A DNA stretch of 20,248 nt from Saccoglossus kowalevskii. Its lineage: Eukaryota; Hemichordata; Enteropneusta; Harrimaniidae. The first letter of the stretch is position 1. Every line of letters begins with the position of its first letter. Shown here piece by piece: positions 4,785 to 19,400 of this stretch. Position numbers and translations under genes: made by a program. The stretch lies in NCBI RefSeq assembly GCF_000003605.2, contig NW_003126935.1, forward strand, positions 13,299-33,546, given 5' to 3'. A model generated the notes under the pieces. The model was not told the DNA's origin. It saw only the letters and a list, made by a program, of their open reading frames with translations, and searched no databases.

Positions 4785-5214
4785 TTAATTTTTGTTTTCT
4801 GTTAAAATATCATTGATGAATTTTCCCAGGCTGTTGGTAATGAAACCATCATTTGAACTTAAAATTTGTTTGAACATGTTTTGTTCTGATAATGTTAGTA
4901 GACTATCATTATACAATGACAAAGTATTAATAAATTGTGTACGACTAGTTATTAACCTTTGGTTCTTACAAACCAATAATGCATATATTTCATCACCAAT
5001 AGCCTTGTCTTCACACAAATTACAAATTCTTTCCTCTGGAGGAATGCCTTTGTATCTTAACCTTTCAATTGGCAGCGTATGAGCAGAGATTCTAAATTTG
5101 ATTATACTTGTTCTATGACTAATATTTTTTACAAGTTCTAGATATGGCTCAAATTCATATTTTGATTTAAACGTCTTTTAAATGCGTAATTTATTATTTT
5201 CTATTTTTTGGAGG
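4785..5214 (-). pseudogene. C-terminal Cys/His region of the same LINE ORF2
   Basis: On the minus strand, in frame with the stop at 4785, the sequence reads SHRTSIIKFRISAHTLPIER, then PPEERICNLCEDKAIGDEIY and ALLVC. The 'SHR..I.KFRISAH.L.IE..RY...P..ER.C..C......DE...LLVC' layout is the known C-terminal zinc-knuckle-like tail of many non-LTR retrotransposon ORF2 proteins. Here the usual His of 'EYHFLLxC' is Tyr (EIYALLVC). One in-frame stop lies near 5183, upstream of the RISAH block. The product ends ILTENKN. It is the continuation of the reverse transcriptase fragment at 5797-6720, from which the solo LTR separates it. Confidence 0.75.
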
Positions 5215-5257
5215 GCTGGTGTCGTATACGACTTATTTACCACTTCCGTGTCACTGA

Positions 5258-5374
5258 GAATGTTCTAGAACCGTACTGTGTCTGGGTGGAATATTCTAGA
5301 TTTTGTTTAGAAAATGGTTGAATGGGTAATAGAACACTGTAGGAGGCAATAGAAGGTAATGGAACATTCTAGAA
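5258..5374 (+). promoter_or_regulatory. Three heat-shock-element-like sites
   Basis: The heat-shock factor consensus is alternating nGAAn/nTTCn units. 5258-5270 reads GAATGTTCTAGAA (three perfect units). 5289-5301 reads GAATATTCTAGAT (two perfect, third GAT). 5362-5374 reads GAACATTCTAGAA (three perfect). All share the core TTCTAGA. They lie 66-182 bp upstream of the TATA box at 5440-5447, as in heat-shock promoters. Confidence 0.6.
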
Positions 5375-5439
5375 ATTGGTAGTAAGTTCCAGACTCATTA
5401 TGTATGCTGATGTAATGGTCTATTTATAGACAGTGGGGG

Positions 5440-5447
5440 TATATATA
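5440..5447 (+). promoter_or_regulatory. TATA box of the LTR promoter
   Basis: TATATATA sits in a GGGGG...GGGG context, with an initiator-like TTCAG... stretch 12-25 bp downstream (5458-5475). It is in the expected U3/R position of the LTR at 5220-5756, downstream of the heat-shock-like sites. Confidence 0.55.
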
Positions 5448-5796
5448 GGGGAGTTGTTCAGCACTGAGTTCAGATCGGAGATCTCGTTGAATTGTATTGG
5501 AGTTTAAGTATCTAGTTATTAGAGTAGTGGAGTTTTATCGCGTTATTGTACTTGTTTGTACTTGTACTTTATTGTACTTATTGTATGTTTGCAGAGTATA
5601 ATAATACCAGTACCAGTTGAAACCTCATCTGTTGGCTCCGTGTTCGTGTTTTATCATCGCCAACAGGGAAGTCTTTCTGTAACTGTTGCCATTTTGGTAT
5701 TTGAACCATCACACCTGTACTATACCAATTACGGTAATAATACGTTGCGTGTGACAGCTGGCAACCACTGGTTATCAATATAGGTTTTCTGTAATT

Positions 5797-6720
5797 TCAT
5801 TTTTGTTTGTATACTATTGAACTCTGCATTATCATGTACATTGATATTTCCTGTAATTTGTTCATGAATGCTGTCCATGTGTTGCTTTCTGACTTGAATG
5901 CACATTGAACTAAAGGGCTACATTCTGGATTTAATATTCTCCTTTGGTATTTTAGCAATTGTGAACATATATCAGTGATGATTGGGTAGCTTCCAAGCTC
6001 TGCTCTAGAAGCAACTTTACTGGACCATTTATGTACACCGAGTGTTTGCTTGCAAAATTTGATGTGCAGTTGTTCAATTTGTAATTTGTCATTGAATAAT
6101 TTTTGAATGAATGAATCATTTGCAATAATGTTACAATTTTTTGATTTAAATAATTTAAAGTTAAAAGCTGCCCATACTTCTGATCCATACAATATGATTG
6201 GCAGAACTGTACTTCTGAATAGTTGTATTGCATTCTTTGGTGAAATGATATAATTGTGCAAGTTTAGTGTCTGTCTTAGTGCACCTAGGGCTCGCTGTGC
6301 TTTCATCACTAAGTTATCTATTGCTAGTTTAAAGTTTCCACTGCTATGAAAGATAATTCCTAGGTATGTATAAGTGGAAACTATCTGTATTTGCCTATTA
6401 CCTGAATAAAAATTAAAATTATGACCCATGATTTTACCCTTTTTATTAAATATTAATATTTTAGTTTTATTGATATTGACCTGCAATTTCCACTTTTCAC
6501 AATAACTGTTTAATTTGTTAATACTATTTTGAAGTCCTGTCTCTGAACCTGATAGTATTACAATTATATTATCAGACAAGTCATTTATAAATATGTTAAA
6601 CAGTAGTGGGCTTAAATTACATCCCTGTTTAACCCCACTAGCTGATACAAATGGTTTAGTGTAACCATTATTTGTTCTGATAGCATAACATAAGGTATTG
6701 ATGCAGATTCCTGGGCACAA
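5797..6720 (-). pseudogene. LINE reverse transcriptase fragment lacking the YADD box
   Basis: This 307-codon fragment covers the middle and thumb of a LINE reverse transcriptase, the enzyme that copies LINE RNA into the genome by target-primed synthesis. Residues 29-48 read GVKQGCNLSPLLFNIFINDL, the conserved block just ahead of the catalytic loop. Residues 59-80 continue with SETGLQNSINKLNSYCEKW, the block just after it, and YGSEVW follows near residue 178. The catalytic Y-A-D-D that belongs between these blocks is missing: IND-LSD is joined almost directly to IVILS, an in-frame loss of about 20 residues. The fragment is therefore catalytically dead. The first ATG (6720) is simply the first Met after truncation. 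A frameshift near 5797 ends the frame, and the protein resumes at about 5214. Jockey/CR1-like by motif style; the clade is not certain. Confidence 0.85.
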
Positions 6721-8065
6721 TTTTTTTTTTCTTAGGGAGACAGTCTTGGCTAGAGAGTGTTAAAGTTTCGGAGCATTGTCAATACTGGAACATACTCAAA
6801 TATCAATTTAAAATATAGGGTACCGATGCGTGCGTATGTGATTACAAGTCCCGAAAGTTTGTCACTATTGGTGTTATATGCAAATGAGTTGCTGGCCTTA
6901 GTTACAGTGCAGCGATGTGTGACTTCCTGTCCTCCACCCAATTAAATGTAACTTGTCTCAAGCGCTATCAACTAGTCTCGCAAACTAAAAAAAAGACGTA
7001 GACGCTTCCAGCATGCAAAGTGAATAAAAAAAACATACAGTTGATAAGTAAACGTTTTCACTCTTATTTCGCAACATGTCGATAACTTTCAGCCTGGCAA
7101 CTTCCAATGTTATCCTGAAGGCATTTTAATTAACGTCGCTTTCATAAAACGGGCATTATCTCTGTTCGTGACAGATTGAAAATTAAGTAGGTCACACAGT
7201 TTTTGTCAGTTTGAAGACGTCTCTACGAACAAAGGGACGTTTGGGCTTAATTTTAAAGCTTTGCACTCTCGAACAATTACATTCGAAGTGTGAAATACTG
7301 ACCGGGATGAATATACAGCACACATCCTGCTTGACAATTTTGTAATGTGAAAACAAAACATACTATATATATACGCCTGGACGCCCATTTGTTAATAAAC
7401 AACTGATAAACGCATGATTAAATTAAAATGGCTGTAACTGTCCTGAATTTAAACCTATATGTATTTATAAAAAGTTAAATATAGTGCATAATATGGGGAT
7501 CCCGTCATTACTTTTTTCACCATGTTTCTTTTTTATTATTTATGTACAGCCTTGCTAAATCTTGCTAAGTATTCAAAAGAGAGAATGTTTGTAACCTTGT
7601 TGTACGCGTACGTGTGTATTGTTATGTATTGAACACTGCGAGATCCCACGATATGCTGGGAATAGAACGTAATAACTGGACGAGTGTGGAAAACCTGCTA
7701 TGTAGTGCTGCTAATTTAAGTGGCTATTTTAGTAACACTGATGACCTGGGGTCACGTTCACCAGGAGCCGAGAACAAACTTCTTATTTATCGATTTTTAT
7801 GTTGACATTTGTTCCAAAAGTCTAGTTATTATATTAGAGTCTCAATTATTGTTATGAACATTAGCGAAGTGAAATATGAGAAATAATTCTTAGTTAGAAC
7901 TTTCGGTTATTCAGAGCGCATTATGAGAGTTGTTATGAACATCGTGACTGAATTATTATTATCGAACAACAAACATTCAGGATATATCATTGTACAAGAT
8001 TCGTGATTTATTTGTGTATACACTCTGATATCGGGAAATCGTTTATTACAAAATGTATGCACCAG
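6721..8065. other. Long stretch without recognisable gene
   Basis: Only short ORFs without motifs occur here. A POU octamer ATGCAAAT lies near 6880 and a GTACGCGTAC palindrome near 7602; both are isolated. The ORF at 7614-7805 starts at an ATG but shows no motif or splice context, and I do not call it a gene. Confidence 0.4.
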
Positions 8066-8305
8066 CTATTCTACAGTTATTGTCATTCGCGATGATTTCA
8101 CTCTGATTTGTAAGATAAATTCTCCATACTCTTCCATTACCCATGATACTGTTCGAGCCTCGTTGGTAGGTTTTTCTAGAATGTTCAAGATGTCGCTGAT
8201 GTAACAAGTGTTTGTAAACCGTTCCGTTGAAATAAAACAGAGTTTGTGTTCATCGAGAACCGTGAGTTTCTTCAGTGTCACTGGGAATGGGCGAAAACCT
8301 GTATC
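8066..8305 (-). CDS. Exon-like ORF of unknown function
   Basis: The minus frame from a good acceptor (TTTTGATACAG, at about 8299-8309) to the stop at 8066 gives about 78 residues of varied, protein-like composition. It begins near GFRPFPVTLKKLTVLDEHKL and ends KSSRMTITVE. There is no in-frame ATG near the start, so it would be a terminal exon reached by splicing. The acidic, mixed sequence (for example TVSWVMEEYGEFILQIRV) looks more like a real globular segment than random translation of AT-rich DNA. I do not recognise a family. It could equally belong to an unrecognised transposon. Confidence 0.3.
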   Translation of the reverse strand, partial: DTGFRPFPVTLKKLTVLDEHKLCFISTERFTNTCYISDILNILEKPTNEARTVSWVMEEYGEFILQIRVKSSRMTITVE

Positions 8306-8808
8306 AAAACATTAAACGTTCCCCACACGAGTACTGCTGCGATGTCGAAATTATGAAACCCCGCAACCATGTGAAAGCGACTGTGCCTCCAGCCAACTTG
8401 TGATTTCCATACTGCGATACTGTTTTAAATGTTTTATATTCGTTCATACAATAAATGTACTATTTATAGACAAATTTGCATCATTTAGACGTATAAAAAA
8501 ATGTCTAGTTGTTTATTTTGTGACTATATAGTAACGGATAAGTAAAGTCTGTGTTTATTATGGCGTACACTAAAATCGGTATCTATTACGCCGGTGACCA
8601 TTACATCACCTGTCTCTTTAGAATTCATATACGCGAATTAGTCGACACCCGTGCCTGTCAATCAAACATAGCCAACACGTTCTAGATGCAAACTCAAGAT
8701 TGTAGTCTTTCAACGGCAATGATTAACACCTGAATCGCACCTAGAAATAGTTTGTTTGTTTAAATACCGATCACAATCGAATTTAGATTTATATCCTCCG
8801 CATTAAAT
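8306..8808. other. No gene seen
   Basis: AT-rich sequence with no coding or repeat structure that I can support. Confidence 0.4.
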
Positions 8809-8812
8809 GTAG

Positions 8813-9455
8813 TATGATGAATTTGTTTTGCGTATCTGTTGATCGACTTATTTAGCTGATTACTAGCGAATGGCTGTGTTATGTCTGTCATCGTTTAGGC
8901 CAATGCGAGGTCCTGGACGGAACTCGACTCAGTGATTTGGAACTAATTACGATATAACCGTCGCTATTCGAACTACCATTTCTGACAGTTGGTATTCGCA
9001 GTTATTAATATAGTGAACGATTAATCAAAAGATATGACGTGTTCAGTACTTAGTGTGATTGGCTTTATGATTGAAGGTTACGCCCTAGAGTTTTTATACT
9101 GCTTTGTAATTGGTTAAGGTTTTGAAAGTGAATAAAGTTGTTTTGGGTTGGTCTTGGCGAGTACTCCGCGACAGACGCAGTCTTGGGGCAGTCTTGAGAC
9201 GCAGTCTAGAGAGAGTCTTGGGTCAGCCTTGCGATAGTCTTGGGGACTTTTCCTCAGGGCGCTGTGTCTTATAGAGTACCCGACTGACCGACTAAATACG
9301 AGAGTTGAAACGTAATTTGTTGTTTACGTCTATTTGACTGAAAGTATAAGTGACTTTCCCGATCCCGTACCTCAAGGAGACGAGATATAGAGACGAGACG
9401 AGATTTCCCCCTGGCAGGTGTGGAGAACCCATAGGAGAAGATTTCCCCCCTGATA
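8813..9455 (+). mobile_element. LTR-like element, copy A (643 bp)
   Basis: It begins TATGATGAATTTG and ends CCCCCCTGATA, flanked by GTAG at 8809-8812 and 9456-9459. It aligns along its length with the inverted copy at 11425-12082 and from 8930 onward with the copy at 12294-12761. LTR-like points are a polyadenylation signal (AATAAA within GTGAATAAAG, about 9130), no long ORF, no terminal inverted repeat beyond a few bases, and a short target duplication. The ORFs at 9292-9501 and 9350-9628 are incidental. An internal patch (about 9175-9245) repeats the wording CAGTCTTGGG several times. The family was not recognised. Confidence 0.65.
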
Positions 9456-11068: not shown

Positions 11069-12293
11069 TCAAGGTAAACTCAAATGCTCCCCCTCTGCCT
11101 GGCAAAGCATTATATTGTTGAACATAACATCGATGCACTAGCAATTACTGAGTCATGGCTAAAACCTACTGGTGATGAACCCGTCATCAATGAAGTAACA
11201 CCAACAGGATATTCATATAGTCATTTTCCACGTGTGAAATCTAAAGGAGGTAGGATTGCTTTCATATGTAAATCACAAATTAATGTCATCACCTGGAAAC
11301 CGCTACGTAATTTCACTACCTTTGAAGCTGTTGAAATCACACTTCGTCATCATGATAATACCTTTAAAATTATCATAATCTATAGATTCACCGTTTCAAA
11401 ATTCTTAGATGAATTTGGGTCTCTTATCAGGGGGAAATTCTCTCTCTCTGGGTTTCTCCACACTTGTCAGGGGGGAATATCGTCTCGTCTCTCTATCGCG
11501 TCCCCTTGAGGTGCGGGATCGGGAAAGTCACTAAAACTTTACAGTTAAATAAGACACACACAACGAAATACGTTTCAACTCTCGTCTTAGTCGATCAGTC
11601 GAGCACTCTATAAGACACAGCGCCCTGGGGAAAAATCCCCAAGACTATCGCAAGGCTGGCCCAAGACTGTGTCAAGACTCGCCCCAAGACTCTCTAGGAC
11701 TGGACTCTTAGACTGCCTCTGTCGTGGAGTACTCGCCAAGACCAACTCAAAACTCTCTTTATTCACTTTCAAAACTCTAACCAATTACAAAACAGTAAAA
11801 AGACTCTAGGGCGTAACCTTCAATCATAAAGCCAATCACACTAAGTACTGAATCCGTCATATCTTTTGATTAATTGTTCACTACATTAATAACTACGGAT
11901 ACTAACTGTCAGAAATAGTAGTCTGATTAGCGACGGTTATCTCGTAATTAGTTTCAAATCACTGAGCCAAGTTCCGTCCAAAACTTCAAATAGGCCTAAA
12001 CGATGACAGACATAACACAGCAATTCGCTAATAATCAGCTAATTAAATCGGTCAACAGATACGCGAAAACTAATTCATAACACTCTCCTGGAAACATCCT
12101 CTGTATATTTTAGCAGTCTGATTATTACTGGGATTTCAATTTCCATTGAACAACCTTATCATCCTCCACTGATCTTCATAGATATAAGGAATTAACTTGC
12201 AACCTCATTCAGTGGGTAAGTGTACCGACTCACAACCGCGGCCACATTCTGGATCTGGTTTTCACTAATATAGACACCATCATTGGTTCAGTT
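11069..12293 (+). pseudogene. LINE endonuclease (APE-type) fragment, split by LTR copy B
   Basis: The plus strand at 11105-11424 encodes IVEHNIDALAITESWLKPTG, then the GYSYSHFPR block, SKGGRIAFI, FTTFEAVEITL and IIIIYR, leading to FLDEFGSL. This is the order of the apurinic-type endonuclease of CR1/L2-type LINEs, which nicks target DNA; the Glu of ITESW matches the metal-binding Glu. The domain resumes after the LTR at 12087-12293 with the GDFN-like region and ..THNRGHILDLVFTN.. in shifting frames. One base seems lost in the codons for GDFN (about 12130), giving a frameshift. The final 'SDH' motif is missing, because the sequence changes to LTR copy C at about 12294. The ATG at 11084 is the first Met, not a shown start. 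The fragment is non-functional. Confidence 0.8.
11425..12082 (-). mobile_element. LTR-like element, copy B (658 bp), inside the LINE
   Basis: The element lies in reverse orientation: plus-strand ends are TATCAGGGGG and CATAACA, so in its own sense it runs TGTTATGAATTAG...CCCCCTGATA. It is flanked by CTCT at 11421-11424 and 12083-12086. The insertion splits a LINE endonuclease between FLDEFGS and the codons that follow, and the LINE frame fits again when the element and one CTCT are set aside, so both borders are firm. It aligns with copy A (8813-9455) throughout. In its own sense it carries an AATAAA signal, and an interrupted CCCCAAGACT-type repeat patch on the plus strand (about 11635-11705). 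Confidence 0.75.
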
Positions 12294-12761
12294 GACTCAG
12301 CGATTTGGAACTAATTACGATATAATACGCCATCCGGACAGCTATTTCTGATGTTTGGTATTTGCAGTTAGTAATATAGTGAACAATTAATCAAAAAATA
12401 TGACGTGTCCAGTACTTAGTGTGATTGGCTGTATGATTGAAAGCCACACCTTAGAGTTTTTAAACTTCTTTGTAACTGGTTAAGTTTTGATACGTAATAA
12501 ACAGTCTACGTCCTTGGTCACAGAGAGAGAGAGAGAACTCGGCGAAGCGTGAGAGTCTTAGTCAGTCCTGGGCAGAGACCCGACGAGGCAGTTTGCCACG
12601 GGCGTTCTCGATGTGGCTAAAGACTAGCTATTGAAACGTATTTCGTTGTGTGCGTCTATTTTACTGTAAAGCTCAAGTGACTTTCCCAGTCCGGTACCTC
12701 AAGCAGACAAGATACAGAAACCAGACGAGAATTCCCTCCTGACATGTGCTGAGAGAATCCG
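12294..12761 (+). mobile_element. LTR-like element, truncated copy C
   Basis: From GACTCAG at about 12294 this follows copy A from 8930 (GATTTGGAACTAATTACGATATA...), including the AGTACTTAGTGTGATTGGCT stretch, AATAAA (about 12497) and the GACTTTCCC...GGTACCTCAAG region. It lacks the first 115 bases or so and the CCCTGATA end; similarity fades at about 12761. The left junction with the LINE falls in GACTCAG, a string that fits both sequences. No target duplication is visible. A (GA)n tract lies at 12523-12535. Confidence 0.65.
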
Positions 12762-13715: not shown

Positions 13716-14227
13716 AATGGAAAGTAATTCTTCGTCGTTTGGTGTGTCGTTTTTTCACGAGTTTGTCAGTACGTAGAGTAGAACTTGTAAGTTTATCTTT
13801 CATGTTAGTATTTCTACAAAATGCAATAAGGGGAGGATTTGGAAAAATGTTAATGGGTAACTGATCATTCCGAATTCAGTCCCAGTTTTTTAATAGGGCT
13901 TTTTTGAGCTTAGACCCTTGTATATAAGGGTTGAATCTAGTTGTGAATATCGTTTGCCCTTCATTATTAGGCATTGATTCACACAAATGTGAGATAGGAT
14001 TATCATGTTCATTAATTGAAGAGTATTATTTCGATATGATTATCACCTAATTTTCCAATAAATATATTACGTTTATGTAAGAAATCGTTTAGATTATTAC
14101 ATGTTCGAGCATACTGAATGGTTACGCCTTTAATAAATCCTTTGAATACCGATGTAGGGTGACAAGAATTACGTTTCAAAAATTGAAACGTTTCCGTTGT
14201 CTCGGTGTGCGTTTTCACGTAGATCAA
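13716..14227 (-). pseudogene. Penelope-like element, C-terminal (thumb) part
   Basis: 14012-14227 gives VKTHTETTETFQFLKRNSCHPTSVFKGF and IQYARTCNNLNDFLHKRN, like the 'T..HQYL...S.HP...K..I..G...R..R.CS....F' block. After a break, 13716-13935 gives FTTRFNPYIQGSKLK, then INIFPNPPLIAFCRNTNMKDKL, like the conserved '..F...P..AYRR..NL.D.LV' end of the Penelope reverse transcriptase. One in-frame stop lies between them. The basic tail KKRHTKRRR ends at a stop at about 13716. Confidence 0.65.
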
Positions 14228-14624
14228 GGTACGTGACTTGTGTCATGGAGTATTGGGCCGGTATTTGTAATTCAGGTACGGTACCATTAAATACCATGAA
14301 AATGTCATCTCGAAAACGATACCAAGTGTTAATATATCGAGCACCAAGTAGTAAAATTCGATTTCCCAGTAGGTGGAATGTAATGTCAGCAATATCCGGC
14401 AAAGATGGTGATCCCATGCTAACTCCACATGTTTGGGTACAATATTCATTATTTAACACGAATGTATTTCTTTTCAAAATGAATTCAAGGAGTGTAATTA
14501 TATATTCCAAAGTTAGTGGTTTCAAAAGACTATCATTGTGATTGTAATTCGATTGCATTGCATTAGCGGTTGCTCGGATCACTTCTTCGTGAACAGTATT
14601 AGTATACATTGATACGACGTCCAT
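14169..14624 (-). pseudogene. Penelope-like reverse transcriptase core
   Basis: The frame starts MDVVSMYTN (the 'D-V-x-S-x-Y-T-N' A motif with the first catalytic Asp), continues LLEFILKRNTFVLNNEYCTQ, then TCGVSMGSPSLPDIADI (the B motif), and RFRDDIFMVFNGT, where F-R-D-D stands for the usual YxDD catalytic box. The end reaches VTYLDLRENAH, the block in which other members have FLD. This 151-codon piece is the best preserved part of the element. Both catalytic Asp positions are intact here although the rest is broken. The plus ORF 14197-14541 is its shadow. Confidence 0.8.
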
Positions 14625-14735
14625 GGTTACTAGGACGTTATTTTCACTTGTATTATTATTGTATTATTTGGATACTTGTATAAAATCAGTAATATCTGAT
14701 ATTTTCTCTGTCGGACCAGAGCAACCACCGACTGA

Positions 14736-18239: not shown

Positions 18240-19400
18240 GTCATATTAAAGTGAAGGGGTTGTAGCGAGCGTGTCCTTGAAACTTGAGTCCAAAGTGGCG
18301 TATACAAAATATTGTTTATTTACATCAAATTCAAACATGTGTTGCGTGGCGACCCCTCCAGTTTAAGACATAGCAAAGAAAAACATAGATCACAAGTGAA
18401 AGCATGTCCAAGTTATCACATTTTAAACAAACAAGATGGCTGCCAGTCGGCCATATTTGATCAAATTGCAAATTGAATTGACATGTACATGTATCCATTT
18501 ATGACATGCTAAATATCAATGAAAATTATACATGGGTGACAGAGATATAGTAACATGGCCAAAAATAAAAACAGCTGTTATTCGGCCATCTTTGGTCTGA
18601 TTATGAAACAAAGTGACATGTATGATGTATGTGACAAATACGAATAAAAATGATACATAAATCTTGGAAATATAGTAGTAAGGCAAAAAAGTCAGATGGC
18701 TGTCAATCGGCCATCTTTGATCCGATTTTGAAACAAACTGTCATGGACATTTATCCTAACATGTATAAAATATGCAAATTTTGAATGAAAACTGACAAAG
18801 CATGTCCAAGATACCACATTTAAAAAAAAAACAAGATGCCTGCCAGTCGGCCATCTTTTATCCAATTGCAAAAAAAATTTGTCATGGACATGTATCCTAA
18901 CATGTATAATCTATGTACCAAGTTTGAATGAAAACTGACAAAGCATGTCCAAAATAACAGATTTTCAAAAAACAAGATGGCTACCAGTCGGCCATATCGA
19001 ATCACTAAACTACTGCTAGTGCATATGTTCCACATAAAGTACTAGGCACATGCAAAGAATGAACGAAAATTGGTCCAAAAGATTCTGAAATATGACTCTG
19101 CACGGATGCTTGCACAGACAGACTGAGGACATGTATCCTAACATGTATAATCTATGTACCAAATTTGAATGAAAACTGACAAAGCATGTCCAAAATACAA
19201 CATTTTCAAAAAACAAGATGGCTGCCAGTCGACCATATTGAATCAAATCGCTAAACCACTGCATGTGCATATGTCCCACATAAAGTACTAGGAATCGGTC
19301 CGACGGATTCTGAAATATGACTCCGGACAGACGTACGGACGCACGGACAGAGACCAAATTACAAGTCCCTGTTTTCGGACTTCGTCTGAACGGGGACTAA
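18240..19400 (+). repeat. Array of a repeat of about 140 bp ('aagatggctgccagtcggccat')
   Basis: Six core copies start at about 18431, 18571, 18691, 18830, 18972 and 19212. Each reads (A)CAAGATGGCTGCCAGTCGGCCAT, then TTTGAT..AATTG/TTTTGAAA, followed in the later copies by CATGGACATGTATCCTAACATGTATAATCTATGTACCAA and GAATGAAAACTGACAAAGCATGTCCAA. Copies five and six carry an extra tail (CACATAAAGTACTAGG...GATTCTGAAATATGACTC), and the last ends in a (GGAC/GCAC)GGACAGA run and 'ACAAGTCCCTGTTTTCGGACTTCGTCTGAACGGGGACT'. The minus ORFs 18820-19035 and 19016-19357 are read-through of the repeat. Confidence 0.75.

Follow-up and report, generated by a model that had tools for sequence, protein, structure and literature searches.

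Perfect heat-shock elements in a young LTR retrotransposon family of Saccoglossus kowalevskii point to a probable ONSEN-like promoter driven by HSF in an animal LTR

A solitary long terminal repeat (LTR) in the genome of the hemichordate Saccoglossus kowalevskii contains several matches to the heat-shock element (HSE) bound by heat-shock factor (HSF), which raises the question of whether these sites belong to one insertion or to a whole retrotransposon family, and whether such a family could draw on the heat-shock response of its host. The window, that is, the whole stretch of 20,248 nt analysed here (G000:C1970:13299-33546), comes from an assembly of 572,110,611 bases in 4,830 contigs. It is established that heat activates certain plant retrotransposons, which in turn rewire the stress response; if an animal LTR family had tandem HSEs in hundreds of its promoters, it would be a testable case of heat switching on a mobile element, would hand out stress-inducible promoters, and through its hundreds of insertions would offer natural replicates for learning which genomic sites become HSF-responsive. 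The plant case is ONSEN (ATCOPIA78) of Arabidopsis, described in the sections of the source drawn on here as an LTR retrotransposon with an HSF-binding element in its LTR, for which HSF binding and heat induction were shown and a link both with the heat response of the host and with genes close to its insertions was proposed (PMC3907296).

The LTR occupies positions 5220-5756 on the plus strand, has the ends TGTCG...TGACA, and is flanked by identical 5-bp target-site duplications GCTGG at 5215-5219 and 5757-5761, in agreement with the bordered solo LTR that an earlier note on this DNA had placed at the same coordinates. It is a clean insertion without an interior, for which LTR-LTR recombination is the simplest origin. 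The target was a LINE-type reverse transcriptase gene on the minus strand, its downstream part lying at 4785-5177 (no Pfam match of its own) and its upstream part at 5797-6759 (RVT_1, PF00078, E 5.5e-12); deletion of the LTR and one GCTGG in silico produced a single reading frame crossing the LINE junction. The RVT_1 part is in a different frame from the junction-crossing one, so the target LINE must itself be frameshifted, and none of the 17 stretches matching a peptide pattern in a scan of genome contigs encoded a relative of the LINE protein. The earlier length of 537 bp is true of the window copy and not of the family, since most of the other 39 copies compared with it measure about 500-511 bp; the window LTR is atypically long because of a private 30-bp insertion of short TTGTACTT-like repeats (5555-5584, plus strand), the columns of which are gaps in 97-100% of the other 39 copies, column by column. 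The promoter orientation was set as plus from the primer-binding site 3' of the LTR end in two copies with interiors (L003 and L012), and a TATA motif, GGTATATATAGG, lies at 5438-5449 (plus strand), identical in 53 of 62 copies.

With a perfect three-unit HSE defined as GAAnnTTCnnGAA (9/9 core bases), three sites were found on the plus strand of the LTR, 66-182 bp upstream of the TATA box: HSE1 (GAATGTTCTAGAA, 5258-5270) and HSE3 (GAACATTCTAGAA, 5362-5374), both perfect at 9/9, and HSE2 (GAATATTCTAGAT, 5289-5301), which matches 8/9 core bases and is mostly lost in one subfamily through a 13-bp gap. Positions and scores thereby reproduce the two perfect and one near-perfect elements that had been claimed, and the accompanying claim that chance placement was very unlikely also stood: when the LTR was shuffled 4,000 times with its dinucleotides preserved, no shuffle contained two perfect HSEs and 6 contained at least one. 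Furthermore, 72 perfect HSEs were counted in the 20,046 bases of 40 LTR copies, compared with 1 in 186,440 bases of non-LTR flanks.

The 40 copies are the best of 597 first-look candidates from a genome search with the LTR; all 40 that were scored matched. Identical 5-bp duplications stand directly at the aligned ends of 25 of them, which are thus solo-like, while two (L003 and L012) run on into an interior starting with TC followed by TGGGGGCTCGTCCGGGA; in the remaining 13 the aligned ends are not bordered by an exact duplication, and several of these copies are truncated or adjoin N. In both copies with an interior a primer site complementary to the 3' end of tRNA-Pro lies 2 bp past the LTR end, and the identity of the tRNA was established from two host genes containing the primer-site sequence (minus its first bases), both of which ARAGORN called tRNA-Pro. 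One contig (C1211) holds a 5' LTR (L047) and a 3' LTR (L081) about 5.26 kb apart, with the target duplication GTGAG and a purine-rich stretch preceding the 3' LTR. Across 504 aligned columns this pair shows 11 mismatches and 2 gaps, and the 40 copies depart from the commonest letters by 1.0-3.0%, which together indicate a fairly young family. TG...CA ends, target duplication, primer site, purine-rich stretch and paired LTRs are thus all present, as is expected of an LTR retrotransposon.

In the interior of L012 a gag is encoded in pieces split by stops; its SCAN domain scores above the cut-off (PF02023, E 3.4e-8), its weakly matching zinc knuckle below it (E 0.031). Beyond a protease-like motif the frame runs into a piece that resembles an integrase leader; this piece had no Pfam match, and the remainder of L012 in that direction is N. 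Gmr1-like, SCAN-gag Ty3/gypsy elements have a SCAN gag, 5-bp target duplications and a primer site, and encode the integrase before the reverse transcriptase. The element described here is alike in the first three of these traits and is likely to be a Ty3/gypsy element of the Gmr1-like kind, a group in which we know of no HSEs. Membership in the ONSEN family proper (copia-type ATCOPIA78) is ruled out by the SCAN-type gag, which is not a copia gag, and the element is ONSEN-like in design only.

To avoid bias towards the window copy, elements were also sampled by their primer site. The tRNA-Pro primer-site sequence occurs at 117 places in the genome with at most one mismatch, many of them in close arrays, and about 600 bases upstream were examined at 42 loci, comprising all 33 exact matches (31 newly fetched, plus L003 and L012) and 9 one-mismatch places among the matches listed; one-mismatch places in arrays were left out, as were C854:18790 and C3415:15276. 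The HSE-bearing LTR family accounts for 24 of the 42 loci, which hold 37 perfect HSEs (two in 14 loci, one in 9 and none in 1). The other 18 loci with the same primer site, most of which can be sorted into a few groups according to the bases adjoining it, contained no perfect HSE in 11,178 bases and five 8/9 matches confined to 3 loci. Perfect HSEs are therefore a trait common to this LTR family and without counterpart at the 18 other primer-site loci. As a side observation on the host, matches to the tRNA-Pro 3' end were clustered on one strand in contigs C117, C712, C1903, C2713, C3200 and C4053; two of these matches, one in C117 and one in C712, were tested and proved to be tRNA-Pro genes, which suggests that tRNA-Pro genes form large arrays in the host.

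The 22 copies new from the primer-site loci were aligned with the 40 from the LTR search, giving 62 copies. HSE1 is perfect in 51 of these (17/24 with a primer-binding site, 34/38 others) and HSE3 in 54 (20/24 and 34/38); among the 24 primer-site-bearing elements, HSE1 is thus imperfect or lost in 7 and HSE3 in 4. At least one perfect HSE is kept in 61 of 62 copies, so that family members carry an HSF-type element in the LTR, the exception being L058, a primer-site-bearing element without a perfect HSE1 or HSE3. The outcome that the earlier note had named as counting against its proposal, a lack of conservation of the sites in other copies, did not occur. HSE2 is polymorphic: it scores 8/9 in 37 of the 62 copies and is absent, gapped or worse in 25, partly through the 13-bp gap of one subfamily, and none of the 40 scored copies has a perfect 13-mer there. 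Both a perfect HSE3 and the TATA run were scored in 18 primer-site-bearing copies. From the start of HSE3 to the TATA run, 14 of these copies have a distance of 78 bp and the remaining four 71, 76, 77 and 80 bp; the HSE1-HSE3 distance is more variable.

We consider the most probable reading of these data, at a probability of roughly 0.6, to be a young, multi-copy LTR retrotransposon with an ONSEN-like LTR promoter driven by HSF in an animal, heat induction being predicted from the sequence. Under heat or proteotoxic stress, trimers of the host HSF would bind HSE1 and HSE3, with HSE2 as a dispensable third site, and the bound factor would switch on transcription from a TATA-directed start in the LTR, predicted at about 5465-5475; full-length copies could then transpose, so that the element would copy itself during the heat-shock response of its host. 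Each solo LTR left behind would be a portable HSF-responsive promoter or enhancer, with a possible selective advantage to the element and possible effects on nearby genes. The same sequence evidence would be expected if the sites were true HSF sites that act chiefly where HSF is active constitutively, in the germ line or in development, with heat incidental, and the germ line is where an element has to copy itself in order to be inherited; HSF, moreover, has germline roles in animals. The data at hand do not separate this alternative from the heat reading. Inducible promoters, however, typically have perfect three-unit sites in repeated form, and we regard the alternative as unlikely.

The earlier note had proposed to check whether the sites are conserved above neighbouring positions. 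Three tests gave no measurable excess. The 27 core columns of the three HSEs had a mean variability of 0.0158 versus 0.0189 elsewhere in 40 copies (MWU P=0.41). On a tree of the 62 copies, 3 internal-branch changes fell in the cores of HSE1 and HSE3 (18 columns), compared with an average of 4.1 for random pairs of U3 windows, 53.5% of which equalled or beat this pair for few internal changes (the other U3 columns, 195 in number, had 45 such changes, and the other columns overall, 462, had 81). Retention of the HSE1 and HSE3 words was ordinary (percentiles 0.38-0.75), and the HSE2 word was retained less than most words (percentiles 0.05-0.23). Purifying selection on the cores within this young family was thus not detected by any of the three tests, which have low power and detect only very strong selection because the copies are on average about 3% apart.

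This result bears on the proposal that the HSEs are passengers, acquired by a recent founder through chance or capture, needless for transcription and spread along with the element. The lack of excess conservation of the cores is what such an origin predicts, as are the loss of most of HSE2 from a whole subfamily and the existence of elements without HSE1 or HSE3. Two perfect sites in one LTR of 500 bp are, however, very unlikely to arise by chance, at least one of the sites persists in 61 of 62 copies, and one copy (L051) retains both HSE1 and HSE3 although the intervening sequence is partly missing. On balance the passenger origin appears improbable to us, and an LTR promoter responding to HSF continues to be preferred.

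A comparison with the heat-shock genes of the host points in the same direction. A search for HSP70 genes yielded 26 matches of exon size, which mostly belong to three genes with several exons (C449, C1346 and C3049). The gene on C1346, which we take from its N-terminal sequence to be of the cytosolic type, carries a single perfect HSE, GAATGTTCTGGAA, which precedes the ATG by about 318 bp and a TATA-like stretch by about 50 bp (the latter judged by eye); a partial fourth unit is suggested by an overlapping 8/9 match on the opposite strand. No perfect HSE was present in the upstream sequence fetched for the C449 and C3049 genes. The C1346 element equals HSE1 of the LTR in 12 of 13 letters, one spacer base being different, and this near-identity indicates that the LTR carries, in duplicate, a type of site found in the heat-shock gene family of the host. 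The three LTR sites also resemble one another, with 13 of 14 letters matching, and they may therefore be copies of one ancestral motif that was selected for any factor. On such a reading the repeated palindrome centred on TTCTAGAA would be bound by another protein, the HSE match being a coincidence of the motif of that protein, and HSF binding is itself a prediction. Against this stand the complete set of three GAA/TTC units, correctly spaced, in both HSE1 and HSE3 and the occurrence of the same 13-mer, save for one spacer base, upstream of the host HSP70 gene; we give little credence to a different factor and retain HSF as the probable regulator. As a separate observation, no intronless HSP70 was found among the 26 matches, in a search that scores only its best candidates; its absence would be unusual for an animal, if real.

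The contribution of the LTR to the perfect HSEs of the whole genome was then estimated from word counts. The pattern GAAnnTTCnnGAA occurs at 5,009 places (2,516 + 2,493) compared with 1,829 for the reversed pattern. The exact 13-mer of HSE3 occurs at 462 places (reversed control, 12) and that of HSE1 at 456 (reversed control, 10), so that the two together (918) make up about 18% of all perfect HSEs; among 100 of the 5,009 places listed, 21 were one of the two 13-mers (counted by eye). Same-strand pairs of perfect HSEs with 40-110 bases between them number 398, versus 31 for the reversed pattern, and among 100 pairs listed 94 belonged to this LTR and 6 did not (counted by eye). From these 13-mer and pair counts, together with the retention of the 13-mers, the family was estimated, very roughly, at ~550-600 LTRs or ~0.05% of the assembly. 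A 22-mer spanning HSE3 had no match in an IMG/VR scan. It would be a far larger claim that one LTR family took over much of the heat-shock cis-regulatory landscape of the animal, amplifies under heat and has put dozens of host genes under HSF control. We hold this to be doubtful; if true, an animal would have in an LTR family the equivalent both of ONSEN and of the Caenorhabditis Helitrons.

A few of the 918 places lie outside the LTR. One is at position 8174 of the window, where an HSE-like sequence that the earlier note had passed over, TTCTAGAATGTTCAAGAT, consists of three perfect units and a near-perfect fourth (8174-8191). A diverged relative of the LTR at 8150-8900, suggested by two short collinear matches, was rejected, its local score of 178 falling within that of shuffled sequences (mean 174, s.d. 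7.6). Perfect HSEs other than the 918 LTR-type words are still more than twice as numerous as the reversed control, and the recurrence of words such as GAAAATTCGAGAA and GAATATTCATGAA among the matches listed hints at other repeat families with HSE-like motifs.

Among known systems, ONSEN and the present family are alike in having an HSF-type element within the LTR, with HSF binding and heat induction being sequence-based predictions in the animal. They differ in that ONSEN belongs to the copia type, is found in a plant, numbers 8 copies in Col-0 and has LTRs devoid of CG sites (PMC3907296), whereas the animal element has a SCAN gag, hundreds of LTRs and, in the LTR studied here, 14 CpG. That HSEs can be borne by invertebrate transposons is already known in the form of the Caenorhabditis Helitrons, for which the portions of the report used here describe HSEs bound by HSF-1, with evidence from HSF-1 and polymerase occupancy and from expression (PMC6927752). 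The cross-species Helitron analysis in the same portions used the degenerate motif NGAANNTTCNNGAAN, which is also the one applied here, and attributed to Helitrons a 46.2% share of HSEs in C. elegans, compared with the share of about 18% found here (PMC6927752). In both cases transposons supply a large part of the HSEs of a genome; Helitrons, as presented there, are DNA transposons, while here the HSEs lie in an LTR promoter that has a TATA motif of its own. According to a review, an HSE in U3 of the bovine leukaemia virus LTR is activated by HSF1 in reporter assays (PMC10236774); that is one short element in an exogenous vertebrate retrovirus, as opposed to a genome-wide family. No report of HSEs in an invertebrate LTR retrotransposon family was found in the titles and abstracts that searches of open-licence literature brought up, which is weak evidence of absence, and an invertebrate counterpart of ONSEN is a plausible description of the family.

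Neighbouring exons encode 7tm_1, SRCR, TSP_1 and C-type lectin domains, in keeping with an animal genome. One of them, at L017:6371-6766 (plus strand), is an exon of a peptide-receptor-like GPCR resembling neuropeptide receptors (7tm_1, E 2.3e-12) and lies about 1.0 kb from an HSE-bearing LTR, which is on the 5' side of the exon and in the opposite orientation; this gene could exemplify a possible LTR-affected neighbour and is not evidence of regulation.

The window contains further repeats. A second reverse transcriptase fragment at 14169-14663 (minus strand) gave a weak RVT_1 match below the cut-off (E 0.0012) and looks Penelope-like. Degenerate direct repeats at 18345-19352, with spacings of about 125-141 and 241 bp, are minisatellite-like. 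Inverted repeats of up to 312 nt with 90% complementarity pair 8826-9430 with 11451-12068 at a distance of 2.6 kb, with a third related copy at 12294-12736, and these repeats possibly represent a foldback or terminal-inverted-repeat element.
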